Shown: piece after piece, positions 3,110-47,750 of the stretch | Numbering within the stretch: the stretch's first letter is position 1 | How the letters are laid out: each line of letters begins with the position of its first letter | Source: Cytophagales bacterium | GTDB lineage: Bacteria > Bacteroidota > Bacteroidia > Cytophagales > Microscillaceae | Reading direction: 5' to 3' | DNA: 47,890 bases | Assembly (NCBI GenBank): GCA_013298075.1 | Contig: JAAFJG010000034.1 | Span: 1-47,890 of the forward strand | Made by a program: the position numbers and the translations under genes | Notes under the pieces: generated by a model | The model's input: only the letters and a program-made list of their open reading frames with translations | Databases searched by the model: none | Told to the model about the DNA's origin: nothing

Positions 3110-3715
3110 ATGAAATTTTTTTGTCTATTTATTTGTTTATATTTTATTGCTAATTTTATCTATTCGCAAAAAAAAGATATTGTAGCATATCTTACAATAT
3201 TTCAAAAAAATGAAGAGAAAAAAATCAGAAGTTCTGATGCTCAAAAAATTGTTTTTGATAATTTTATCAATGATAAAGATAAAAATTTGATAGAATCGAA
3301 TGCAAAAGAAGTAGAAGAAGGTGGCGATATTCATCTCAAATCTTATCAAATGAGAATTTTTGAAACGAAAAATAAAAAATATATTATTGCTGTTTTTGGA
3401 ATGAATTGTTGGACAGGTTGTATTAGTGATATAAATGAATTGTATTTTTTTGATGAAAATATGAAAGATATAACTCAAAAAATATTACCCAAAACTAAAA
3501 TTATTACTTATTTTCAAAAGTTTGTAAAAAAAGAAGTAAATATCGAAAGTGCTTTTTTGGCTGATATATTATCAGATAAATCTAAAATTACGCTTTATTT
3601 ATCTCCCAATTATTTAACTATGAAAGAACAAGAATTAGTTGATAATGTTGCTTTTTTGGAATTTGATAAGAAAAAAGGTAATTTTAAATTTGTGGAAGAG
3701 AAAATAAAAAAATAG
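3110..3715 (+). CDS. secreted hypothetical protein
   Basis: This 201-residue protein begins with a clear Sec signal peptide (KFFCLFICLYFIANFIYS, probable cleavage before QKK), so it is expected in the periplasm or on the surface. The mature part is rich in lysine, aspartate and glutamate and contains a WTGCISDINELYFFD stretch, with two cysteines five residues apart (NCWTGC) that could form a disulfide. I recognise no family. The gene stands alone and converges on the AAA+ ATPase gene across a shared terminator. The start is the first ATG and sets the signal peptide correctly. Confidence 0.65.
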   Translation: MKFFCLFICLYFIANFIYSQKKDIVAYLTIFQKNEEKKIRSSDAQKIVFDNFINDKDKNLIESNAKEVEEGGDIHLKSYQMRIFETKNKKYIIAVFGMNCWTGCISDINELYFFDENMKDITQKILPKTKIITYFQKFVKKEVNIESAFLADILSDKSKITLYLSPNYLTMKEQELVDNVAFLEFDKKKGNFKFVEEKIKK

Positions 3716-3725
3716 GAGAAAAAAA

Positions 3726-3755
3726 AACGCTACAAAAAAATTGTAGCGTTTTTTT
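3726..3755. terminator. bidirectional terminator
   Basis: A perfect 10-bp stem (AACGCTACAA at 3726-3735 with TTGTAGCGTT at 3741-3750) has A-rich sequence on one side and T-rich sequence on the other. It can therefore end transcription of both converging genes. Confidence 0.85.
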
Positions 3756-3770
3756 ATTATTATATCAATA

Positions 3771-4958
3771 TTACAAATCTGTACTCGGTGCTGTTTTTCG
3801 CATACGTTTTAGGATTCGAATATCATTTTCAATATAACTAACCAAAGGTTGAATATAAGAAGGAAGCATTTCGATATCGATTTGATTTGCCAACATTTGC
3901 GTCATATTATAAATATATGCCCCTGTGGCTTCATTGTGTCGATATACTTCTACAATATCATCATCAGCCAAAATTTTAAAATCTTCCATTTCAGAAATTT
4001 TAAGCGATTTTAAGATGATTAATTTGATATTTTGTTTAGTCAATTCTCCAAAAGATAAAATCTTATTAAAACGCCCCGGACGTTGTGCGGCTGCATCAAC
4101 CAACCACAAACTATTGGTAGTTGCCAAAATTCCAACGTTAGGATTTATTTTTTCTACGCCATCTAATACATCTAAAAAATCTCCTAACATAGGCGTGTGC
4201 GAATACATATCTCTATTACCCAATTCCAAATCTACATCATCTAAAATAATCAAAGAAGGGGCTAAAATATTAGCAAATCTTACGGCATTTTTGATGGCAT
4301 TGGTAGATGCTTTTAAGACTGTAACGCCCAATCTTTGTAATTCATTTGCCAAAACGATAACCGATTCTGTTTTTCCACAACCAGGCACGCCTACAAATAA
4401 ATATCGTAGAATTTTTTGTCTTTTTTCAAATATTGTTTTGTATGCTTTTAAATCTTGAATAATAGCATCAGGCAAATAAATATCGTCAAAGCTTCTGTCA
4501 GGAAGTTCGTGTTTATAGAAATTTTGAAAATCATCATCTTCTACATTGATATATGCCCCCTTAAATTGACTATGAAATAAGGCATTATCTAACAAATATT
4601 CATGAAAATTTTGCCCAAAAAAATCAAATTCATTTTGCGAAGTCAAAGAACATTCGTGATACAAAGTAATATCATTTTCCCAATAAGATTTAAAAAATAA
4701 TAGCACTTGTTTTCCTTCCATTTCAACAATAATATAAGTACTTTTTACATTATCATTGCTGATACTACTCGTAAAATTACCGTCCTCGATGATGCTAATA
4801 ACCGAAAAAGGTCTGTCTGCTTCGGTCAATTCGATAACTCCTTGGTGTAAATTAGAAAAAAACTCAAAAAATAAATTACGCACCAACACAGGAATACGGC
4901 GTGGGTAAGTATATAAAGCTTGATGAGTTTTTGTAATGTTGATTTTTATTTTTTTCAC
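3771..4958 (-). CDS. AAA+ family ATPase
   Basis: This 395-residue protein has an N-terminal domain of about 160 residues that I cannot place and a C-terminal AAA+ module. Walker A is GVPGCGKT at 190-197, Walker B is LIILDDVD ending near D243, sensor 1 is ATTN near 279-282, and the arginine-finger region is QRPGRF at 292-297. This is the arrangement of classical AAA proteins (RPGRF as in FtsH, Cdc48 and BCS1), which remodel or unfold proteins or complexes. There are no membrane segments and no protease domain, so it is probably a stand-alone remodelling ATPase whose N-domain picks the client. It has its own strong promoter at 5066-5096 and no operon partner, so context does not reveal the client. 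Confidence 0.8.
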   Translation of the reverse strand: MKKIKINITKTHQALYTYPRRIPVLVRNLFFEFFSNLHQGVIELTEADRPFSVISIIEDGNFTSSISNDNVKSTYIIVEMEGKQVLLFFKSYWENDITLYHECSLTSQNEFDFFGQNFHEYLLDNALFHSQFKGAYINVEDDDFQNFYKHELPDRSFDDIYLPDAIIQDLKAYKTIFEKRQKILRYLFVGVPGCGKTESVIVLANELQRLGVTVLKASTNAIKNAVRFANILAPSLIILDDVDLELGNRDMYSHTPMLGDFLDVLDGVEKINPNVGILATTNSLWLVDAAAQRPGRFNKILSFGELTKQNIKLIILKSLKISEMEDFKILADDDIVEVYRHNEATGAYIYNMTQMLANQIDIEMLPSYIQPLVSYIENDIRILKRMRKTAPSTDL

Positions 4959-6307: not shown

Positions 6308-8596
6308 ATGAATTTTTTAGATGGCTTAAATCCTCCTCAAAAAGAGGCAGTTTTATATACTGAAGGTCCTTTGATGATTATCGCAGGAGCAGGCTCAGGC
6401 AAAACACGCGTGCTTACGTTGCGTGTTGCACAACTTTTGGAAGAAGGAATCGAGCCATATCAAATTTTATCTTTGACTTTTACGAATAAAGCAGCCAAAG
6501 AAATGAGAGAACGCATCGAAAAAATTGTCGGAGCAGAAGCAAAAAATCTTTGGATGGGAACTTTTCACTCGGTTTTTTCACGTATTTTAAGAAGTGAAGG
6601 ATCGAGATTAGGATATGATAGTAATTTTACTATTTATGATACAGAAGATTCGAAAACGTTGCTGAAATCTATTCTCAAAGAACAAAATTTAGATGAAAAA
6701 ATATATCGTATTAATAACGTATTGAGTAGAATCTCGGGAGCAAAAAATAAACTCATTACGTATAAATTATATACGCAAAGCGAAGTATTGAGAGCAGAAG
6801 ATATATCGAGCAAAATGCCTGAACTCTATCGAATATACGAAATTTATCAAAAAAAATGTTACAAAGCCAATGCAATGGATTTTGACGATTTGTTGCTTTT
6901 GACTAATATTTTATTGCGTGACCATGTAGATATTCGTGAAAAATATCAAAAAAAATTTCAATATGTAATGATTGATGAGTTTCAAGATACCAATGTTTCA
7001 CAATATAATATCGTCAGAATGTTATCTCAACAACATCAAAATATTTGTGTAGTGGGAGATGATGCACAAAGTATTTATGCGTTTCGAGGAGCAGATATTC
7101 AAAATATTCTTAATTTTGAAAAAGATTATCCAACGTTAAAAACAGTGAGATTAGAACAAAATTATCGTTCTACGAATAATATTGTGCAAGCCGCCAATTC
7201 AGTTATTGCCAAAAATAAATCACAATTAAGAAAAAGTGTTTGGACAGAAAATGACGAAGGAAACAAAATAAAAGTCGTAAAAACGATGTCCGATACAGAA
7301 GAAGGAAGATTGGTAGCGGATACAATTTTTGAAGAAAAACATCAAAATAGTTGGAAAAACGAAGATTTTGCCATTTTATATCGCACCAATGCACAATCCA
7401 GAATTATGGAAGAGGCATTGAGAAGAAAAAATATTAAATATAAAATTGTAGGCGGTTTTTCTTTTTATCAACGCAAAGAAGTAAAAGATTTGTTAGCTTA
7501 TTTTCGTTATACAGTCAATCAACGTGATGACGAGGCTTTTAAAAGAATCATTAATTTACCCAAAAGAGGCATTGGAGATACAAGTGTCGCCACTTTATTA
7601 GCGTTGGCTGGTGAAAAAGGAATTACTGTTTGGGAATTATTGACTTTGCATAAAGACGATATTTCGAACCGAATTTTAGGAGTTTTAGAAGTTTTTACGA
7701 CTTTAATCCAAAAATTTATTGACTTATTAAACACCAAAAATGCACACGAATTGGCAGTAATTATTGCTAAAAATTCAGGGCTTTTACAGGAATTATATGA
7801 AGATAAATCAATTGAAGGTATTTCGAGATACGAAAACATGCAAGGTTTATTAAATGGAATTAGTGAATTTGTGGACAATGAAGAAAATATAGATAAAAAT
7901 TTAGCCACTTTTTTGCAACAAGTTACCTTAGTTACGAGTCTTGATGAAAGTTCGAAAGATGAAGACCAAGATAAAGTTACTTTGATGACTATTCACTCTG
8001 CCAAAGGTTTGGAATTTAAGCACGTTTTTGTGGTCGGAATGGAAGAAAACTTGTTTCCTTCGCAAATGGCGAATAATTCTTTGGCATCAATAGAAGAAGA
8101 AAGACGTTTGTTTTATGTGGCGGTTACACGTGCGGAACAAAAACTAACTTTGACTTATGCCCAAAGTCGTTATTATTTTGGTAATTTGCAACAATCAGAA
8201 AAAAGTCGTTTTTTAGAAGAAATTGATGCCCAATTTTTACAAGTTGATGGCGGAATTTCTCGCTGGACAAGGCAGGAAATGATGAATAAAATTGAACAAA
8301 AAAATGAAAGTACAAATTTTAATTTTTCGAATCAATTTAAAAATTCTTCGCCTGCGGCTTATACACGCATCACGAACACAACTCAAAAAACGAACTCAAC
8401 GGACTTTAAACCAAGTAATGTAGCAGAATTAAAGGTAGGAATGAAAGTGGAACATCAAAAATTTGGAGTTGGAGTTATCAGAGAATTGCAAAATTTTCAA
8501 GATGATAAAAAAGCAGTCATTGATTTTCAAACTGCAGGTGAAAAAACTTTATTATTGAGTTTTGCTAAGTTACAAATTTTGAAAATGCACGACTAA
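6308..8596 (+). CDS. uvrD: UvrD/PcrA-type superfamily 1A DNA helicase
   Basis: This 762-residue 3'-5' helicase carries all SF1A motifs: Walker A AGAGSGKT at 26-33, Ia LTFTNKAAKEM near 55, II IDEFQD near 220, III GDDAQSIYAFRGA near 250, IV LEQNYRS, V MTIHSAKGLEFKHVF near 558, and VI LFYVAVTRAEQ near 600. The last 55 residues (LKVGMKVEHQKFGVGVI onward) form the Tudor-like C-terminal domain of PcrA/UvrD, which binds RNA polymerase in characterised members. Known roles are nucleotide excision repair, removal of blocked replication forks and backtracking of stalled polymerase. Length matches the family (about 720-780), so the gene is complete. It is monocistronic. Confidence 0.95.
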   Translation: MNFLDGLNPPQKEAVLYTEGPLMIIAGAGSGKTRVLTLRVAQLLEEGIEPYQILSLTFTNKAAKEMRERIEKIVGAEAKNLWMGTFHSVFSRILRSEGSRLGYDSNFTIYDTEDSKTLLKSILKEQNLDEKIYRINNVLSRISGAKNKLITYKLYTQSEVLRAEDISSKMPELYRIYEIYQKKCYKANAMDFDDLLLLTNILLRDHVDIREKYQKKFQYVMIDEFQDTNVSQYNIVRMLSQQHQNICVVGDDAQSIYAFRGADIQNILNFEKDYPTLKTVRLEQNYRSTNNIVQAANSVIAKNKSQLRKSVWTENDEGNKIKVVKTMSDTEEGRLVADTIFEEKHQNSWKNEDFAILYRTNAQSRIMEEALRRKNIKYKIVGGFSFYQRKEVKDLLAYFRYTVNQRDDEAFKRIINLPKRGIGDTSVATLLALAGEKGITVWELLTLHKDDISNRILGVLEVFTTLIQKFIDLLNTKNAHELAVIIAKNSGLLQELYEDKSIEGISRYENMQGLLNGISEFVDNEENIDKNLATFLQQVTLVTSLDESSKDEDQDKVTLMTIHSAKGLEFKHVFVVGMEENLFPSQMANNSLASIEEERRLFYVAVTRAEQKLTLTYAQSRYYFGNLQQSEKSRFLEEIDAQFLQVDGGISRWTRQEMMNKIEQKNESTNFNFSNQFKNSSPAAYTRITNTTQKTNSTDFKPSNVAELKVGMKVEHQKFGVGVIRELQNFQDDKKAVIDFQTAGEKTLLLSFAKLQILKMHD

Positions 8597-8667
8597 GTTA
8601 TGTTAAATTGATTTTTTTGTACCTTTACACAAATTAAAAAAAAATTATGTCAGAAGAATAATTTAAT

Positions 8668-8937
8668 CAGGTTAAACGCACCTAAAAAGGCACATTTTGT
8701 GATTTTTTAAGTGATATTTATAATTTTTCAACCTAAAATATTTTATTAAAGTTATTTTTTACTAAAAATTAAAGTGTTACTAATAATAAAGTTCTGTATT
8801 TTTAACAAATTTTGAAAAAAAATTAATGAATATTTTATCTGTTAAATTATTTAATATTTTAAGTAATAAAATAAAAATATGTTTATTTTTATAGTTTTAA
8901 AAAATTAAATAATGCTTTTTTAGGTGCGTTTAACCTG
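8668..8937. mobile_element. 270-bp inverted-repeat element (MITE-like)
   Basis: Two 25-base ends face each other: 8668-8692, beginning CAGGTTAAACGCACCT, and 8913-8937, ending AGGTGCGTTTAACCTG. They match at 24 of 25 positions as inverted repeats. The 220 bases between are about 85% AT and non-coding. I see no clear target-site duplication. Just upstream, ATG TCA GAA GAA TAA (8648-8662) is a four-codon frame that may be the stump of a gene. This fits a non-autonomous element moved by a transposase elsewhere; a very long RNA hairpin is the alternative. Confidence 0.6.
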
Positions 8938-22711: not shown

Positions 22712-23545
22712 ATGATAAAACTTTGGTTTTTCTCACAATTATTTTCAACGGCTGATTATACTTCAAAAACAGAAACTATTTATTCTACATTTTTAAAAAG
22801 AAATGTAACTATTAGTACCTTAATTCCTACCAAACAAAACAAAAATCTGACTAATTTACCTTTGTTGCTTATCAATGATGGACAAGATTTTGAGGCGTTA
22901 AAAATGCTACAAACCTTGAATACAATGTCTAAAAGCAGAAAATTAGCACCTATTTTGGTTGTAGGTATTCATGCAGATGGCAATCGTATGCAGGAGTATG
23001 GCACAGCCGCACAAGCAGATTATGCAGGAAGAGGAAGTCAAGCACAACAACATACTAATTTTGTGATACAAGAATTGTTGCCTTTTTTACAGAAAAATCA
23101 TTCTCTAAAAAATGACGCAAAACATCGATATTTTGCAGGTTTTTCTTTAGGTGGCTTGTCTGCGATAGATATTGTGTGGGCAAATCCGACTATTTTTTCA
23201 AAGGTTGGAGTTTTTTCTGGCTCTTTGTGGTGGCGACAAAAACGGTATGAAGACAATCAAAAAGAAGATAATGATAGAATTATGCACAATTTAATCAAAA
23301 ATCAACCTTACAAAAAAGGATTAAAATTTTGGTTACAAGCAGGAACAGAAGATGAAACTTCTGACCGAAACAACAATGGAATTATTGATGCCATCGATGA
23401 CACTTTAGATTTGATGAAAGAACTAAAAAAACAAGGATACAATCATAAAGAAGTTACTTATTATGAAATGAGAGGAGGAAAACACAATCCTGACACTTGG
23501 GCAGAAGCAATGCCTATATTTTTGGAATGGGTTTTGAGAAAATAA
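22712..23545 (+). CDS. alpha/beta-hydrolase esterase (enterochelin esterase-like)
   Basis: This 277-residue protein belongs to the putative esterase family (PF00756-type) that includes enterochelin esterases and antigen 85. The nucleophile elbow GFSLGGL carries the serine, the acid residue is probably in TEDETSDRNNNG, and the histidine is in RGGKHNPDTW near the end. The N-terminus (IKLWFFSQLFSTADYTSKTE) is only weakly like a signal peptide. The ATG at 22712 is used because the frame's earlier start is a TTG inside the preceding terminator. The substrate is unknown, and no siderophore genes are nearby. Confidence 0.82.
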   Translation: MIKLWFFSQLFSTADYTSKTETIYSTFLKRNVTISTLIPTKQNKNLTNLPLLLINDGQDFEALKMLQTLNTMSKSRKLAPILVVGIHADGNRMQEYGTAAQADYAGRGSQAQQHTNFVIQELLPFLQKNHSLKNDAKHRYFAGFSLGGLSAIDIVWANPTIFSKVGVFSGSLWWRQKRYEDNQKEDNDRIMHNLIKNQPYKKGLKFWLQAGTEDETSDRNNNGIIDAIDDTLDLMKELKKQGYNHKEVTYYEMRGGKHNPDTWAEAMPIFLEWVLRK

Positions 23546-23584
23546 TTGAATTTTGTAATTAAAAAAACGCTTATAAAAATTTGG

Positions 23585-24045
23585 TTCTTAGAAAATTTGT
23601 GCGGAAAATGAAAATATGTTTTTTGAAATATGTTTTTTGAATTGCCTCCAGATTTATCTGGAGGATAATATAAAATTCCATAGTTGGCTTTAGCCGAAAT
23701 TTTGTATTTTTCAAACTGATATTCTTCTATATTTTCAAAAATAGAAAAAAAATATTTATTCTTCTTGTTTCTTAGAAAATTTATGGGGAAAATGAAAATA
23801 TGTTTTTTGAAATGTATTTTTTGAATTGCCTCCAGATTTATCTGGAGGATAATATAAAATTCCATAATTGGCTTTAGCCAAAATTTTGTATTTTTCAAAT
23901 TGATATTTTTTTTATGATTCTTAGAAAATTTGTGCGGAAAATGAAAATATGTTTTTTGAAATGTATTTTTTGAATTGCCTCCAGATTTATCTGGAGGATA
24001 ATATAAAATTCCATAATTGGCTTTAGCCAAAATTTTGTATTTTTC
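23585..24045 (+). repeat. three direct copies of a REP-type hairpin repeat
   Basis: Units at about 23585-23723, 23769-23906 and 23918-24045 share about 125-140 bases at high identity. Each starts TTCTTAGAAAATTT and contains the 20-base hairpin CCTCCAGATTTATCTGGAGG (23645-23664, 23829-23848, 23978-23997). The hairpin is followed by GATAATATAAAATTCC and a second mini-hairpin, GGCTTTAGCC, then TTTTGTATTTTTC. The 9-bp stem is invariant while the bases between units differ. They lie upstream of the Y1 transposase in the plus orientation. An open minus-strand frame runs through them but only reflects the repeat. Confidence 0.88.
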
Positions 24046-24193
24046 TATATTTTAAATAAATGACATAAATCTCATTTCTATTATGCTAACGATTTATTTT
24101 TAATATAGCCTTTGATTTTGTGTTATTTTAGTATAAAACATTGATTATCAATATTTAATTTTTGAAATTGTGTTAAATTAAAAAGTATCTAAT

Positions 24194-24667
24194 ATGCCAT
24201 TTATAAAAGTATATATTCATTTTGTCTGGAGTACTAAGAATAGAATTCCTTTTTTACATTCAAAAGAACTTCGCCTAAAAGTATGGAATCATATCAGAGA
24301 AAATGCCAAAGAAAAAGGTATTTTTATCGATTTTATTAATGGTTATTCAGACCATTGCCATTGTTTGATTTCTTTGGGAATAGACCAAACTATTCAAAAA
24401 GTGATGCAATTATTAAAAGGAGAATCTTCTTTTTGGATAAATAAAAATAATTTACTTGCTGAATTTACTTCAGATTTATCTGCAGAAATACAAAAGTTCG
24501 AATGGCAAGATGAATATTTTGCAGTATCCGTATCAGAATCTATGGTAGATAAAGTAAGAAATTATATTAAAAACCAAGAAGAACATCACACAAAAAAAAC
24601 ATTTGAGCAGGAATATAATGAGTTTATATTAAAATATGAATTCGAAAAATATAAAGATTTAGGCTAA
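24194..24667 (+). CDS. REP-associated tyrosine transposase (Y1/HUH, TnpA-REP)
   Basis: This 157-residue protein belongs to the Y1 transposase superfamily of IS200/IS605 and RAYT proteins. It starts with the typical VYIHFVWSTKNRIPFL, has the metal-binding HUH motif H54-C-H56 in GYSDHCHCLISLG, and the catalytic tyrosine Y124 in VRNYIKNQEEHH. These enzymes cut and rejoin single-stranded DNA at hairpins. The nearby hairpin repeats, in plus orientation before the gene and minus orientation after it, suggest a REP-associated domesticated form rather than a free IS. The last codons and the stop lie inside the first downstream repeat: the TAA is part of GGCTAAAGCC. The catalytic residues are intact, so it may be active. 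Confidence 0.9.
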   Translation: MPFIKVYIHFVWSTKNRIPFLHSKELRLKVWNHIRENAKEKGIFIDFINGYSDHCHCLISLGIDQTIQKVMQLLKGESSFWINKNNLLAEFTSDLSAEIQKFEWQDEYFAVSVSESMVDKVRNYIKNQEEHHTKKTFEQEYNEFILKYEFEKYKDLG

Positions 24668-24720
24668 AGCCATATCAAATTCTATATTATCCTCCAGATA
24701 AATCTGGAGGCAATTCAAGA
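24642..24720 (-). repeat. REP-type hairpin repeat, inverted copy 1
   Basis: This is the minus-orientation copy of the unit seen at 23585-24045, with the hairpin at 24691-24710 and the GGCTAAAGCC mini-hairpin at 24662-24671. It overlaps the last 8 codons of the transposase gene. Confidence 0.88.
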
Positions 24721-24752
24721 TGTAATTTAAAATAATCAATTATAAATTTTTT

Positions 24753-24860
24753 GAATAGAAATAGCATTTATGCTTCATTTGAAGTAAAATAGAAAATTTC
24801 GGCTAAAGCCATATTGAATTCTATATTATCCTCCAGATAAATCTGGAGGCAATTCAAAAT
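24753..24860 (-). repeat. REP-type hairpin repeat, inverted copy 2
   Basis: The hairpin is at 24830-24849 and the mini-hairpin at about 24801-24810. The flank starting GAATAGAAATAGCATTTAT is shared with the distant copy at 47630, so the full unit is longer on this side. No gene is visible in 24668-24909. Confidence 0.85.
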
Positions 24861-24909
24861 ACAATACAAATTTCTTAACATTTGAGCAACTTATTTTTTA
24901 GATGCTCCA

Positions 24910-26346
24910 CTATGTAAAATTACTAATTTTATTGATTAGATTTTTCTTTTTATCCGTATAAGGTGGATAAAACATTTTCAAAGTAGTCCAACCAATGCGT
25001 TGTCTTAATACAGAACGCTCATTAGAAAACGCCAAAAATCCGTGATAACCGTGTGTTTTCCCAATTCCGCTATTATTTACTCCTCCAAAAGGCAAATCAG
25101 GATTCGAAATATGGGCTAATGTTTCATTGATAGCCGTTCCACCTGCAGAAGTATTTTGAATCACTTCATTTTGAAAACTTTTATTTTTACTAAAAATATA
25201 CAAAGCCAAAGGTTTTGGTTTTGCATTGATAAAATCTAACGCTTCTTTTGTATTTTTATAGGTAATAATCGGTAAAATCGGTCCAAAAATTTCTTCGTGC
25301 ATTACTTGCATTGCGTTGGTTGCACCTGTGATGAGTGTAGGAGAAATATAATTTTCTTCAGATTTCAATAATCCGCCTACTTCGATATTTGCTCCTTTTT
25401 CTATGGCTTCATCTAACAAATTTTTGATGCGTAAAAAATGCCTTTGGTTCACGATGCGTGGATAATCTTGTGAATTCGAAACATCAGTTCCATACAAAGT
25501 TTGAATTTGATTTTTGAGTTCATTGATTAAAGCAGGAGCAATATTTTCATTCACCAACGCATAATCGGGTGCGATACAAGTTTGTCCGCAATTAAAGAAT
25601 TTTCCCCAAATAATTTTTTGTGCTGTATCTTTTATGTTAGTATCACTATCTACTACCACAGGCGATTTTCCACCTAATTCTAAGGTAACAGAAGTCAAAT
25701 GTTCAGACGCAGCACGCATAATAACTTTGCCAAGCATCGGACTTCCTGTAAAGAAAATATGGTCAAAAGGCAATTTTAAGAGTGATTGAGCAATATTTGC
25801 ATCACCTTCTAAAACAACTACTTCATTTTCTTTAAAAATTTCTGACAACATTTTTTTCATCATCGCAGAAGTATTGGGCGTTAATTCTGATGGTTTCAAA
25901 ACTACCGTACAACCTGCTGCAATTGCATAAACCAATGGGTCAATCGCTAATTGGAAAGGATAATTCCAAGGAGAAATTATCAAAGATGCTCCTTTTGGCT
26001 CTACATAAATTTTACCTTTCGAAAATAACATTGGCAAAGGAGTTGGTACAGATTTAGGTCGCATCCATTTTTTTAGATGTCTAATGGCGTGTGAAATAGA
26101 ACTCAAAACACCAAAAATTTCGCCTAAATCTGCTTCTGCTGAACATTTTTTAAAGTCTGCATAAACGGCTTTATGAATAGCCTCACGATTTTTAAGAATT
26201 GTACTTTTTAAAGTTTTTAGTTTTTGAATTCTTTCTTGTGCCGTTGAAAGTCTTAGGCTTTCTGTATATTTTTTTTGTGCTTCGAATATCTTTAAAATTT
26301 CTTGTTCAGTCATTATATTTTCGACTGGGGCATAAGTTGTTGTCAT
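24910..26346 (-). CDS. aldehyde dehydrogenase (class 3-like)
   Basis: This 478-residue NAD(P)-dependent enzyme oxidises aldehydes to acids. Catalytic residues are present: general base E223 in LELGGK, nucleophile C257 in NCGQTCIAPDY, oxyanion N128 in SPWNYP, and the EEIFGPILP and PFGGVNNSG motifs. The short N-terminus and C-terminal tail fit the class 3 / fatty-aldehyde branch. The start is the ATG at 26346: a -7 element at 26387-26380 would place transcription downstream of the earlier in-frame ATG at 26382. It is monocistronic. The physiological aldehyde is not evident from context. Confidence 0.92.
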   Translation of the reverse strand: MTTTYAPVENIMTEQEILKIFEAQKKYTESLRLSTAQERIQKLKTLKSTILKNREAIHKAVYADFKKCSAEADLGEIFGVLSSISHAIRHLKKWMRPKSVPTPLPMLFSKGKIYVEPKGASLIISPWNYPFQLAIDPLVYAIAAGCTVVLKPSELTPNTSAMMKKMLSEIFKENEVVVLEGDANIAQSLLKLPFDHIFFTGSPMLGKVIMRAASEHLTSVTLELGGKSPVVVDSDTNIKDTAQKIIWGKFFNCGQTCIAPDYALVNENIAPALINELKNQIQTLYGTDVSNSQDYPRIVNQRHFLRIKNLLDEAIEKGANIEVGGLLKSEENYISPTLITGATNAMQVMHEEIFGPILPIITYKNTKEALDFINAKPKPLALYIFSKNKSFQNEVIQNTSAGGTAINETLAHISNPDLPFGGVNNSGIGKTHGYHGFLAFSNERSVLRQRIGWTTLKMFYPPYTDKKKNLINKISNFT

Positions 26347-27021: not shown

Positions 27022-27153
27022 CACCAAAAATAAATTTACAAATTTAAAATAATTGTGTGTTGAACAAAAGAATTCCTTGCATGGATACATTTTATATCCA
27101 TGTACTGGAATTTATATGACGAAAATATTAAACTAAAAAAAACAAAAAAATAT

Positions 27154-30100
27154 ATGTACAAATTTACCTTTTTCAATTTTATAATATGCCTGATGCTTTG
27201 CTTGGGCGTATGTGGGCGGGTGATAGCACAACCCACGATAGAACTTTTTGCGGGAATGAACAACCAAGTTCAACTCCAAAAAAATGGCTATATCTATAAA
27301 AATGGTATGCACTATGTCGTGTGGTCAAATGGTATGTCGCACCCAAGTAGAGGGATTGATTTTAATACTTTTGATGGTTTTATCAAATTATCTACCTCGC
27401 CTGATGGTTTGGTTTGGACTACCCAAAATATATTGAGCATACCGAATGGCTCATTTTATCACGTAATGACCGTCGATAATGCAGGAAAAATTCATATTGC
27501 CTTTATCAAAAATACTTCGCCTGGTTTTTATGGGGCGCAAGATGGCGAAATGGTCTATGCCAATAATGTAAGTGGTACGTGGACAGAAATATCCAACTTA
27601 GGCAATGGGACAAGTCTTGCTTATAATTGGCACTTACCTTATCAACTTACTTGGGGAGCAGATGGAAAATTACGCTTGTATTTTACCAATTCTACAGGTT
27701 GGTATGCAACAGGTGCGCCCCTACAAATGCGTGTGTGGGAAACAAGTTTGAACAATTGGACACCTGCTATTACGATTTCTGCCCTTAACGACAATCCAAA
27801 CGGTGCGGATAGCCAAAGAAATGCATATCTTTTTTCTAAGATAGTGGCAGGCAAAATGCAAGTATATGTATCAGATGCGTATAGACAAGATTGTGGTTCT
27901 TGTACTCCTATTCATTACAATACCATAAAAGTGTTCGAAGAAAATCCTATTACTTATGCTTATACACAGATTGCGACAATTCCTAACCTACGTCATTATA
28001 CTGAAAGTATTGATGGTTTGTTTAATCTAAATGTAGCAAGCAATGGTTTGAATATGAATTTGAATGGCTTGCCATTTTTTACCTTGCCTGCGGCTGAGAT
28101 AGTGAATTACCCGTATATTTGGATAGATGAAAATAGCGAATTTATTGTAAGTAATACAGGTAATCAATCGAGGGCATTTAGTAGAGTTACAGGCAATGTC
28201 ATCAATCAAATCACAGGACAATATATGATTCCTGCGAATGGTTTTCAGTTGATAGCAGACAATACAAGCAATCCAAGACGCTTGTATCGTTTTGTCAATC
28301 CAACTATTACTGCTCCGAGTGCTTTGACTTTTGTGGCTTCGGGTGGCAATCAAAGTGCGAGTATTGTTACTGCTAACTGCACAGGAGGCTGGACTGCAGT
28401 AAGCAATCAGGCTTGGCTTACTTTCTCACCTGCATCAGGCGTAAATGGTACAGCCAATATGACCATCACCGCTACCAATAATACAGGTGCATCGCGCACA
28501 GGTACGATAACGATTACAGGTTGTAATGGTGCGGTGGTAAAAGTGATAACGATAACGCAGGATGCAGTCGCAGCACCTTGCAATCAAAACTATAATTGGA
28601 CTACTTGGCAAAGTTTTTCGGGTACAAGTGCTACAGGTGTGATAAATAATGCTGGTCAGAATGTCAATGTAACAATGACCTCAAATTTCAATTTTAGTTC
28701 TACTCCAGATGTATTTAATTATCCTGCTTTTAATAGTTTTACTGGTAATATACCTAATACTACAGTTCCAAAAACTACTTGGGCAGTGGGACAGGGTGGC
28801 GTAACAACAATGTGTTTTAGTCAAACCGTTCAGAATCCTGTTTTGGTACTTTCTTCATTAGGAGGAGGAATGATTGTGCCTGTAACTTTACAATTTTCAC
28901 TACCCTACACAGTAGTTTTTGACGGTGGAGGTATGCAATATGTAAATTCTACGACTGTAATAGGAAATGAAGGTTTTGCTGTTTTTTTATTCCCTGGCGT
29001 ATTTGATTGTGTAACCATATATTCAAGCACTCCTGAAGATTATACCAATATAACTTGGGGATTAAATCCACCTCTTTTTCCTGTCAATATATCAGGCAAT
29101 CCTGTAAGTTGTACGAATGTTACTTTGACTGCTACAGGTGGTGTTACTTATTTATGGAATGGGGGAAGTTCTCCTAATACTGCTACTAATACGTTTAATA
29201 GTAGTGGTACGTATATATTGAAAGTAACAGACGCAAATGGCTGTTCTGTAACTACCTCAAAAACCGTAACCATCAATCCCTTGCCTACCCTTTCTTTTGT
29301 AGGATTGCAGGCAGGTTATTGCGTAACCGCATCTGCTTTTAATTTACAAGCAAGTCCTTCGGGAGGAGCATTTACAATCAATAATATCAGTGCCACACAA
29401 TTTAATCCGAGTACTTTGGGCGTAGGTAATCACGTTGTAAAATACACTTATATAGATGGCAATGGTTGTGTAAATAGTAAAACACAAAATGTTGTCGTTA
29501 ATCCTTTGCCTGTGTTGAGTTTTGTGGGTTTGAATACTTCGTATTGTGTTAGTTTGAGTGCGTTTAATTTGCAGGCAAGTCCCGCAGGAGGTACATTTAC
29601 CATAAACGGAAACAGTGCCACACAATTTAATCCAAGTGTTTTAGGTGCAGGAACGCACACTGTTATTTATACTTATACAGATGCGAATAGTTGCACCAAT
29701 ACAAAATCGCAAAGCGTGGTGGTTAATGCTTTGCCTGTTTTGTCTTTTGTAGGTTTGAATAATGCGTATTGTATTAATGCAAATGCGGTTACTTTACAAG
29801 CAACGCCTTCGGGAGGTACATTTACAATTAATAATATTAGTGCAACGCAATTTAATCCGAGTACCTTAGGCTTAGGAACGCACAATGTAGTTTATACCTT
29901 TACAGATGCAAATAGTTGTACCAATACAAAAACACAAAATGTGGTAGTTAATCCATTGCCTATTTTGTCTTTTGTAGGTTTAAATACTGCATATTGTGTT
30001 GATGCAAGTCCCTTTAATTTACAAGCAAGTCCTTCGGGAGGTAGTTTTTTGGTGAATAATATCAGCGCCACACAATTCAATCCGAGTGTTTTGGGCGTAG

Positions 30101-31866
30101 GAAATTATATTGTAAAATATACTTTTACAGATGGGAATGGTTGTGTAAATAGCAAAACACAAAATGTTGTAGTTAATCCTTTGCCTATTTTAAATATTTC
30201 AGGTTTGAATAATGCGTATTGCATCAGTGCAAATGCGGTTACTTTGAGTGCAACTCCTTCAGGAGGTACGTTTACTATTAACGGAAATAATGTCACGCAA
30301 TTTAATCCAAGTATTTTAGGAGCGGGAACGCACACTGTTATTTATACTTTTACAGATGCAAATAGTTGCACGAATACGAAAACACAAAATGTGGTGGTTA
30401 ATCCTTTGCCTGTTTTGTCTTTTGTAGGTTTGAATAATGCGTATTGTATCAATGCAAATGCGGTTATTTTACAAGCAACGCCTTCGGGAGGTACATTTAC
30501 CATAAACGGAAACAATGCGACAAATTTTAATCCGAGTATTTTAGGAGCAGGAACGCATAACGTAATTTATACTTTTACAGATGCAAATAGTTGTACCAAT
30601 ACAAAAACACAAAATGTGGTCGTTAATCCATTGCCTATTTTGTCTTTTGTAGGTTTGAATACTGCATATTGTGTTGATGCAAATGCTTTTAATTTACAAG
30701 CAAGTCCTTCGGGAGGAGCATTTACAATCAATAATATCAGTACAACGCAATTCAATCCGAGTACTTTGGGCGTAGGAAATCACGTTGTAAAATACACTTT
30801 TACAGATGGTAATGGTTGTGTAAATACAACAACACAAAATGTAGTTATCAATGCGTTGCCTGTGTTGTCTTTTGTAGGTTTGAATGATAAATATTGTATT
30901 GATGCCAATGTATTTATTTTGCAAGCGAATATATCAGGTGGTGTATTCAAAATCAACAATGTAACGGCGACACAATTCAATCCGAGTACTTTGGGAGCGG
31001 GAACGCACATTGTCAATTATACTTTTACAGACGTAAATAGTTGTACGAATACCACCAATAAAAGCGTGGTAGTAAATCCTTTGCCTGTGTTGTCTTTTGT
31101 GAATATATTGGATAGATATTGTCCTGAAGGAGCTTCTTCGCCTTTGCAAGCAAGTCCTGCGGGAGGAACATTTAGAATAAATAATAGCGTTGTAACTGAA
31201 CTTAATCCGAATTTGTATAGTGTGGGACAGGTTTTAAATTTGACTTATACATTTACAGATGGCAATGGTTGTACTAATATGATTACAAAAAATATTTCTA
31301 TTTTGCATCCAGATTTTTATGAAGATAACGTTGAAAATGTAGTTATTTGTCCTAATCCATATTCGGGTAGCGTAATAGAAGCGATGACTTTAGAAGAATT
31401 GCAACAATTTGCTGCTGGCGGACAACAAATCACTTTTCAATGGTCAAATGGTAGTACTACTCGCACCATTGCCGTAGGTGGAAGTAATATTGGCGTGTTT
31501 CCGATTGGTACTTATACAGTCATTGCACGCAATCAATCGGGTTGTCATTATCGTAAAACGGTTTATAATATCAGTATAGAATGTAAACCTGAAATATATG
31601 TTCCGACTGCCTTTAGTCCAAATGGTGATAATTTAAACGATTCTTTAGAGATTTTTGGGGGAGATATAGTCAATTTTAAAATGACTATTTATGACCGTTG
31701 GGGAGGAATTGTATATATTTCGTATCGATTAGAAGACAAATGGGATGGTACTTTGAATGGACAAAATTGTCCTGATGGAAATTATGTTTGGCAATTACAA
31801 TATGCTAATCCTTTGAAATTAACAGAAGTTAAAAAACTTCAAGGAGTGGTTACTGTAATCAGATAA
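27154..31866 (+). CDS. giant secreted multi-domain protein with type IX (type B) sorting domain
   Basis: This 1570-residue surface or released protein starts with a signal peptide (FFNFIICLMLCLGVCGRVIA; the ATG at 27154 gives it the right form). Residues about 30-385 have propeller-like repeats with phrases such as TSPDGLVWTTQ and VDNAGKIHIAFI. Residues about 386-470 are a BACON-type domain (WTAVSNQAWLTFSPASG). A variable region and one PKD-like unit follow, then nine tandem 75-residue Ig-like repeats (about 709-1383), each with a conserved YC...GC pair. Residues about 1479-1570 are the gliding-motility-associated C-terminal domain (VPTAFSPNGDNLND...DRWG...WDGT), the export signal for the type IX system. 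Adhesion or polysaccharide binding is inferred from architecture, not shown. Confidence 0.9.
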   Translation: MYKFTFFNFIICLMLCLGVCGRVIAQPTIELFAGMNNQVQLQKNGYIYKNGMHYVVWSNGMSHPSRGIDFNTFDGFIKLSTSPDGLVWTTQNILSIPNGSFYHVMTVDNAGKIHIAFIKNTSPGFYGAQDGEMVYANNVSGTWTEISNLGNGTSLAYNWHLPYQLTWGADGKLRLYFTNSTGWYATGAPLQMRVWETSLNNWTPAITISALNDNPNGADSQRNAYLFSKIVAGKMQVYVSDAYRQDCGSCTPIHYNTIKVFEENPITYAYTQIATIPNLRHYTESIDGLFNLNVASNGLNMNLNGLPFFTLPAAEIVNYPYIWIDENSEFIVSNTGNQSRAFSRVTGNVINQITGQYMIPANGFQLIADNTSNPRRLYRFVNPTITAPSALTFVASGGNQSASIVTANCTGGWTAVSNQAWLTFSPASGVNGTANMTITATNNTGASRTGTITITGCNGAVVKVITITQDAVAAPCNQNYNWTTWQSFSGTSATGVINNAGQNVNVTMTSNFNFSSTPDVFNYPAFNSFTGNIPNTTVPKTTWAVGQGGVTTMCFSQTVQNPVLVLSSLGGGMIVPVTLQFSLPYTVVFDGGGMQYVNSTTVIGNEGFAVFLFPGVFDCVTIYSSTPEDYTNITWGLNPPLFPVNISGNPVSCTNVTLTATGGVTYLWNGGSSPNTATNTFNSSGTYILKVTDANGCSVTTSKTVTINPLPTLSFVGLQAGYCVTASAFNLQASPSGGAFTINNISATQFNPSTLGVGNHVVKYTYIDGNGCVNSKTQNVVVNPLPVLSFVGLNTSYCVSLSAFNLQASPAGGTFTINGNSATQFNPSVLGAGTHTVIYTYTDANSCTNTKSQSVVVNALPVLSFVGLNNAYCINANAVTLQATPSGGTFTINNISATQFNPSTLGLGTHNVVYTFTDANSCTNTKTQNVVVNPLPILSFVGLNTAYCVDASPFNLQASPSGGSFLVNNISATQFNPSVLGVGNYIVKYTFTDGNGCVNSKTQNVVVNPLPILNISGLNNAYCISANAVTLSATPSGGTFTINGNNVTQFNPSILGAGTHTVIYTFTDANSCTNTKTQNVVVNPLPVLSFVGLNNAYCINANAVILQATPSGGTFTINGNNATNFNPSILGAGTHNVIYTFTDANSCTNTKTQNVVVNPLPILSFVGLNTAYCVDANAFNLQASPSGGAFTINNISTTQFNPSTLGVGNHVVKYTFTDGNGCVNTTTQNVVINALPVLSFVGLNDKYCIDANVFILQANISGGVFKINNVTATQFNPSTLGAGTHIVNYTFTDVNSCTNTTNKSVVVNPLPVLSFVNILDRYCPEGASSPLQASPAGGTFRINNSVVTELNPNLYSVGQVLNLTYTFTDGNGCTNMITKNISILHPDFYEDNVENVVICPNPYSGSVIEAMTLEELQQFAAGGQQITFQWSNGSTTRTIAVGGSNIGVFPIGTYTVIARNQSGCHYRKTVYNISIECKPEIYVPTAFSPNGDNLNDSLEIFGGDIVNFKMTIYDRWGGIVYISYRLEDKWDGTLNGQNCPDGNYVWQLQYANPLKLTEVKKLQGVVTVIR
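29278..31302 (+). repeat. nine in-frame 225-bp tandem repeats
   Basis: The units recur exactly every 225 bases (29278, 29503, 29728 and so on). Each encodes PLPxLSFVGLN-xx-YC, then SGGxFxIN, FNPSxLG, YTFTDxNxCxN and VVVNPLP. Units 3, 5 and 6 resemble each other more than their neighbours, as do 1, 4 and 7, which points to duplication of blocks or gene conversion. The last unit is the most diverged. Confidence 0.93.
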
Positions 31867-47629: not shown

Positions 47630-47750
47630 GAATAGAAATGGCATTTATTTAAAAAATATCAATTTGAAAAGTGCGGAAATTTTGGCTAAAGCCAAGGATT
47701 GAATTTTTTTATTATCCTCCAGATAAATCTGGAGGCAATTCAAAAAACGT
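47630..47750 (-). repeat. REP-type hairpin repeat, distant copy
   Basis: Same unit as at 24753-24860: GAATAGAAATGGCATTTAT, the GGCTAAAGCC mini-hairpin and the hairpin at 47716-47735. It lies 23 kb from the transposase, so the family has spread beyond its gene. Confidence 0.85.

Follow-up and report, generated by a model that had tools for sequence, protein, structure and literature searches.

A subclass 1.2-type Y1 transposase gene framed by two-hairpin repeats: a probable REP/RAYT-like system in a Cytophagales genome

We analysed a stretch of 47,890 nucleotides from a Cytophagales bacterium (contig JAAFJG010000034.1), referred to here as the window. At 24194–24667 on the plus strand lies tnpA, an open reading frame for a Y1 HuH transposase of 157 residues (Y1_Tnp profile, E 8.4e-27). 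The gene is flanked by repeat units in opposite orientation on its two sides, three plus and two minus, and each unit consists of two hairpins, HP1 (CCTCCAGATTTATCTGGAGG) and then HP2 (GGCTTTAGCC). The plus units, at 23581–23726 (left inverted end from 23583; HP1 23645–23664; HP2 23686–23695), 23765–23910 (HP1 23829–23848; HP2 23870–23879) and 23914–24059 (HP1 23978–23997; HP2 24019–24028), are 146-nt direct repeats; relative to the first, identity is 94% for the second and 89% for the third. The minus units, at 24654–24731 (HP2 24662–24671, with the tnpA stop codon inside it; HP1 24691–24710) and 24793–24870 (HP2 24801–24810; HP1 24830–24849), are 78-nt repeats with 88% identity. HP2 follows every plus copy of HP1 and is mirrored in every minus copy. 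HP1 was exact in all five flanking copies and in a dispersed minus-strand copy close to the window end (47716–47735), where the right inverted end is present and a search for the left end found none; a shuffled control of the window (n = 100) gave zero matches even at up to three mismatches. The original prediction of an intact Y1 gene with three plus-oriented copies of an invariant hairpin on one side and two minus-oriented ones on the other was thus borne out, as was its reading of the repeat as a two-hairpin unit, seen in all window units and again in other genomes. The stop codon within HP2, a repeat relic within tnpA and the inverted-end element described below go beyond that prediction. 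Elsewhere in the window, at 27100–31866, the translation of a 1588-aa ORF contains, by eye, many similar internal repeats.

A further repeat-like sequence was found within tnpA itself. An in-frame insert of 30 nt (24464–24493, plus strand; residues 91–100) resembles a decayed HP1, with a 44-nt match starting at 24459, and its region repeats that of HP1 in direct orientation at 78%. As a repeat copy the insert DNA scored 20.3 bits, compared with 2.4 for the best shuffled site, and among sites more than three bases off HP1 in 435 kb of this genome none other scored as high, except one decayed true repeat. The insert was absent from 75 of the 78 protein alignment rows covering this position; besides the window protein, L090 and L091 carry an equally long insert there, that of L091 still being repeat-like. 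On the protein tree the three inserts need two changes, and a single change was found in 0 of 200 bootstrap trees, although a single origin is contradicted by no well-supported (starred) branch. A comparable in-gene repeat is described for subclass 2.4 in the available part of PMC6006769. The relic gives the best indication that the short hairpin of about 30 nt can insert by itself.

In order to place the enzyme, we compared its motifs, profiles and fold. Alignment revealed D53-H54-C55-H56, W104-Q105 and Y124-IKNQ-EE-HH, and H54, H56 and Y124, already named in the original prediction, were invariant in a five-protein alignment. This motif set agrees with that of TnpA_Y1 subclass 1.2 (DH[IV]H, WQ, Y---Q--HH), except for C in place of I/V at residue 55. 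In the available part of PMC6006769, subclass 1.2 adjoins the IS200 transposases, comes mostly from Cyanobacteria and Bacteroidetes and is tabulated with "no" REP, and a table gives the Y..NP motif as the mark of RAYTs. The window protein carries Y---Q--HH (YIKNQ) without Y..NP. It passed the NCBIfam IS200 transposase model (60.8, cut-off 55) and failed the REP-transposase model REP_Tyr_transpos (30.8, cut-off 80). Among solved structures, IS608 TnpA is closest in sequence (E 7e-5), and the best fold matches to its predicted structure (pLDDT 84.5) were ISDra2 and IS608 (E about 1e-7), with TnpA_REP 4er8 ranking lower (4.5e-5). In a tree of 90 proteins, built from few columns, it groups with L106 (93/81). 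By its motifs the enzyme fits TnpA_Y1 subclass 1.2, and judged by model and motif it is not a classical RAYT. The original description of a RAYT-type enzyme in a REP/RAYT-like locus holds for the kind of system and fails for the class of enzyme.

The original prediction had named grouping with ordinary IS200 transposases, with IS ends left and right, as one outcome that would speak against it, and the passed IS200 model and the nearest folds do lean that way. They could be read as an ordinary IS200/IS605 element bounded by a hairpin end on either side, in which case the scattered copies would be solo ends. However, one Y1_Tnp match was found among the 10 candidates scored in this genome (97.9% complete), with no near-identical multiples, and the repeat units are inverted on the two sides of the gene. 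At E 1e-20, relatives of TnpA were detected in 164 of the 395 genomes sampled across the phylum. In many species pairs related genes lie between homologous flanks on both sides, and pairs of related genes have a median dN/dS of 0.065 (42 non-independent pairs, >88% identity, dS 0.1–2); the window gene is outside these pairs. The low dN/dS and the shared flanks fit a kept gene, not an insertion sequence, and tnpA likewise looks like a maintained gene. We regard the ordinary IS200/IS605 element as very improbable.

We then examined 79 distinct loci, obtained from the best 80 of at least 544 confirmed relatives. A hairpin with a TTYA apex was present within 400 bp of the gene in 66 of the 79 loci, whereas only 21 of 1550 control windows drawn from these loci had one; the hairpins lay upstream in 31 loci, downstream in 57 and on both sides in 22. 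The other 13 of the 79 had no TTYA hairpin within 400 bp, which counts against the explanation we prefer below. Within 600 bp the same best-80 set yielded 138 TTYA hairpins, among them 75 HP1-like ones in 48 loci, the commonest forms being CCTCCAG-C-TTTA-G-CTGGAGG and CCTCCAG-A-TTTA-T-CTGGAGG. A foot, [GC]AAT[TA]G, stood in exact register at no fewer than 69 of the 138 hairpins, and in some of the remainder the stem is one base longer or shorter. At the window locus the foot is GAATTG; the classical REP foot is GT[AG]G in the available part of PMC6006769.

HP2 also recurs in the loci of other genomes, both by eye and at inverted-pair sites. Six genomes belonging to a single genus yielded 12 inverted pairs of the form HP1-HP2-HP2'-HP1', measuring about 115–122 bp from hairpin to hairpin, with a mismatch in 1 of the 24 HP2 copies; the sites had been preselected by pair spacing, so 12 of 20 fetched is no rate. 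By sequence, this layout is that of a REPIN. As a candidate empty site we aligned the tpx neighbourhood (14 sequences including the query; of 15 loci, two were dropped, L243 as a copy of the query itself and L255 because a search for its right flank found none). The pair was present in the query alone, yet the region is so crowded with other repeats that the exact junction is unreadable, and the candidate was set aside. In several genomes of this genus the gap is occupied instead by a different palindromic repeat that is also frequent, CCCGCGAGAGGGAT...GGTGGCTCGCCC (in L228 at about 2605–2775, and at the corresponding site elsewhere).

The original prediction had called for a count of copies across the genome and of their positions relative to genes. 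HP1 proved plentiful, with 218 exact matches (95 + 123 on the two strands) in 4.71 Mb on 153 contigs and 0 for a reversed-pattern control; at up to two mismatches there were 513 strand hits, in which perfect palindromic sites count on both strands. We located 50 exact copies in 435 kb, comprising the window and 20 stretches picked for holding copies, where ORFs of at least 90 aa cover 78%. Forty-three lay between ORFs, four at stretch edges and three inside one ORF, a 189-aa minus-strand frame running across the window's own repeats. The neighbouring genes were convergent at 13 of the 43 placed intergenic copies and divergent at 3. In 835 kb of this genome we also noted nine arrays of 2–4 tandem 21–22-nt partial repeats (foot, left arm and loop) that run into an HP1 or a decayed HP1 copy (L060 5409, 14409 and 15945; L279 1273; and, counted from the start of the reverse strand, L061 17127, L067 18228, L070 4186, L074 19714 and L279 103).

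In favour of the explanation we prefer below, HP1 at up to two mismatches was absent from 18 of 19 other genomes, the nineteenth having one palindromic site. A general HP1 pattern matched in 45 of 395 genomes, with 244 matches here and at most 21 in any other; many single-match genomes may be chance, the reversed control giving at most one match per strand per genome. All 10 genomes with at least three matches carry the gene (background 164/395), which also speaks for that explanation; eight of the 10 belong to one genus. Dispersal was weak in most relatives, however, and this counts against it. In the best-80 set, a hairpin is listed for 73 of the 79 loci, and 66 of those 73 had no exact copy elsewhere on the 3–20 kb stretch. 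G024 had three matches of its hairpins and G019 two, all at the gene. In samples of 40–60 kb from each of seven distant relatives (G009, G016, G017, G020, G022, G028 and G029; those of G009, G016 C2 and G020 C18 include the gene's own locus), off-locus counts were 0, save one for one G016 hairpin and one extra for one G009 hairpin.

Intergenic hairpins with an excess of convergent over divergent neighbours could also be transcription terminators or RNA-stability elements only, the enzyme being unrelated, and three terminator-like sites were indeed called at the three plus HP2 hairpins, with 0.3 expected. HP1 itself was not called as a terminator, and the sole Rfam match in 23400–24950 reached 26 bits, the gathering score being 100. 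The strong enrichment of hairpins beside tnpA in the 79 best-80 loci, their common foot and the in-frame copy inside tnpA likewise argue against this proposal, which we hold to be highly unlikely. A REP/RAYT-like system with a two-hairpin repeat is well supported, on the basis of the 218 copies, the hairpins at 66 of the 79 loci, the inverted pairs in six genomes and the in-gene relic. The earlier suggestion of a little-described REP class gained support as well, with copies abundant in this genome and the two-hairpin unit recurring in others.

Many HP1 copies proved to be part of a longer element. Of the first 80 copies, 30 proved to be enclosed in a full-length element, about 215 bp long, whose inverted ends, GGTTCTTAGGAAATTTGTGCGG and CCGCAATAATTTCCYATGAACC, are GGTTCTTAGGAAATTTGTG-like. 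Among 109 profile hits, 36 had both ends and 32 neither, while the left end alone was present in 27 and the right end alone in 14. The flanks of 31 anchored elements contained 10 exact 8-bp duplications against 0.68 expected, and mean flank identity at 8 bp was 0.75, a value reached in 0 of 2000 permutations, compared with 0.50. Exact matches numbered one at length 7 and one at length 9; identity was slightly raised at several other lengths (0.06–0.09 above the permuted mean), an effect to be expected of A/T-rich flanks. In a second sample, larger and in part shared with the first, 9 of 32 elements had exact 8-bp duplications against 0.68 expected, with at most 5 in 5000 permutations. We also observed an element of about 335 bp with CTCCCTCACC and GGTGAGGG arms twice (L069 about 8576–8910; L276 about 3585–3920), once within a repeat element and once behind a decayed left end.

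IS200/IS605-type (Y1) insertion is not known to produce target duplications. DDE enzymes do produce them, and some DDE families (ISL3-like) have ends starting with GG together with 8-bp duplications. A DDE-type enzyme is hence the likelier mover of the full elements, and the many full-length copies are best explained if the 215-bp element is non-autonomous and was moved by a DDE-type transposase rather than by the Y1 enzyme. The ISL3 family (PF01610), chosen for its GG-start ends and 8-bp duplications, gave no match in a search for the DDE partner. No complete long element with such ends was found in 0.83 of the 4.71 Mb; of two candidates, one was an interrupted copy and the other two neighbouring copies. 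As a candidate empty site for the window locus we considered the same-genus aldehyde dehydrogenase region of G002 (85%), and rejected it, as it is not homologous to the window on the side facing tnpA. The negative ISL3 search, the rejected empty-site candidates, the modest share of hits with both ends (36 of 109) and the raised flank identity at some lengths other than 8 count against our preferred explanation.

A more classical account would have the Y1 enzyme scatter all 218 repeats, with the inverted ends merely part of a long folding repeat. The single Y1 gene, the hundreds of largely intergenic copies, the inverted pairs in another genus, the 32 of 109 hits with neither end and the better conservation of hairpin and foot (see below) agree with it. 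Target duplications whose exact matches peak at 8 bp do not, nor do two sister species in which related inverted ends occur with a different hairpin or none. We consider this account improbable. The claim that TnpA scattered these repeats is unsupported as stated, given that a large share of copies has inverted ends and 8-bp duplications, and the Y1 enzyme probably did not scatter most HP1 copies.

In the sister species, stretches of 305 kb (G001) and 211 kb (G002) contained elements with related inverted ends, the left arm being 86% identical over 36 bases by BLAST, and a different hairpin, GTAG-CACACACTTTTAGTGTGTG, present as inverted pairs (L313 19593–19752, L313 near 12376, L314, L319, L336, L338 and L339). 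One exact 8-bp duplication was seen; two elements without the hairpin had flanks alike at 7 of 8 and 4 of 8 bases, and L333 14238–14356 has similar ends and no GTAG hairpin. The window protein as query found no match in G001 (91% complete) or G002 (79% complete). These elements may be viewed as products of two engines, a DDE-type element that repeatedly picks up and spreads Y1 hairpin units, and a Y1 enzyme that maintains the uniformity of hairpin and foot, for example through cut-and-join exchange among the copies. The cargo would then be the AT[TA]G-footed subclass 1.2 unit here and the GTAG-footed inverted pair in the two sister species. We put forward this composite tentatively, as rather unlikely.

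Within the element, conservation is concentrated at the hairpin. When loci were collected by the right half of the element alone, 67 of 70 had the repeat upstream. Foot and HP1 (28 nt) had 40 edits in 1876 nt, or 0.6 per copy, whereas the four 28-nt blocks that follow had 2.9, 5.5, 4.8 and 6.7 per copy. This is a rough comparison that permits shifts, yet the contrast is strong, the hairpin and foot being roughly 5 to 11 times better conserved. Hairpin and foot may therefore matter in their own right. Their uniformity could be explained equally by selection on the hairpin, by copy exchange through TnpA or by palindrome repair.

Taken together, these findings are, in our judgement, probably best explained jointly by a REPtron-like subclass 1.2 unit and DDE-type spread of full-length copies of about 215 bp. 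We infer that TnpA would recognise single-stranded HP1 through its TTTA apex and the 5' [GC]AAT[TA]G foot; by analogy with IS608 and E. coli TnpA_REP, its tyrosine would cut beside the foot and then join the ends. The HP1-HP2 unit would also be housed in the non-autonomous inverted-end element, and a DDE-type transposase acting on the inverted ends would have produced the many full-length copies. Subclass 1.2, common in Bacteroidota and printed as repeat-less in the available part of PMC6006769, would thereby gain a candidate substrate, checkable with one protein and one oligonucleotide. Importantly, abundant REPs are not in themselves evidence of spread by a REP enzyme, and inverted ends and target duplications should be checked first. 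The system also offers natural material for asking why a hairpin stays uniform while the surrounding element decays.

With regard to known systems, the four repeat strings matched no paper in the open-licence literature, and among the matches listed there, as far as their available text goes, we found none that ascribes REPs to subclass 1.2 or describes them inside inverted-end elements. TIRYT loci (PMC3733652, available part) are similar in having Y1 genes framed by inverted repeats, and 20 of 26 belong to subclass 2.1 (PMC6006769, available part), whereas the long inverted ends described here are part of a separate element. Bacterial MITEs, such as those in the available part of PMC3733652, share inverted ends, target duplications, a size of about 215 bp and the absence of genes, but the present element has the hairpin unit of a Y1 enzyme as cargo. 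IS608 and ISDra2 TnpA (IS200/IS605) are nearest in solved sequence and fold, and differ from the present case, with its one copy, inverted repeat units and neighbourhoods common to relatives. The REPtrons and REPINs of RAYT/TnpA_REP systems in E. coli, Pseudomonas and Stenotrophomonas (PMC2817692, PMC3116915 and PMC8266576, available parts) are alike in the single Y1 gene between inverted hairpin repeats, the hundreds of intergenic copies and the inverted pairs in some genomes, and the Marinomonas REP also has a TTTA loop (PMC8266576, available part). In contrast, our system lacks Y..NP, has an AT[TA]G foot for GT[AG]G and two hairpins per unit, and has many copies packed in an inverted-end element. 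The closest relation is TnpA_Y1 subclass 1.2 (Quentin et al., 2018; PMC6006769, available part), alike in DHxH, WQ, Y---Q--HH, size, low copy number and occurrence in Bacteroidetes. No REP is tabulated there, a negative table entry and no membership condition, whereas here hairpins, often [GC]AAT[TA]G-footed, frame the gene in most loci, 66 of the 79 from the best 80 of at least 544 relatives.
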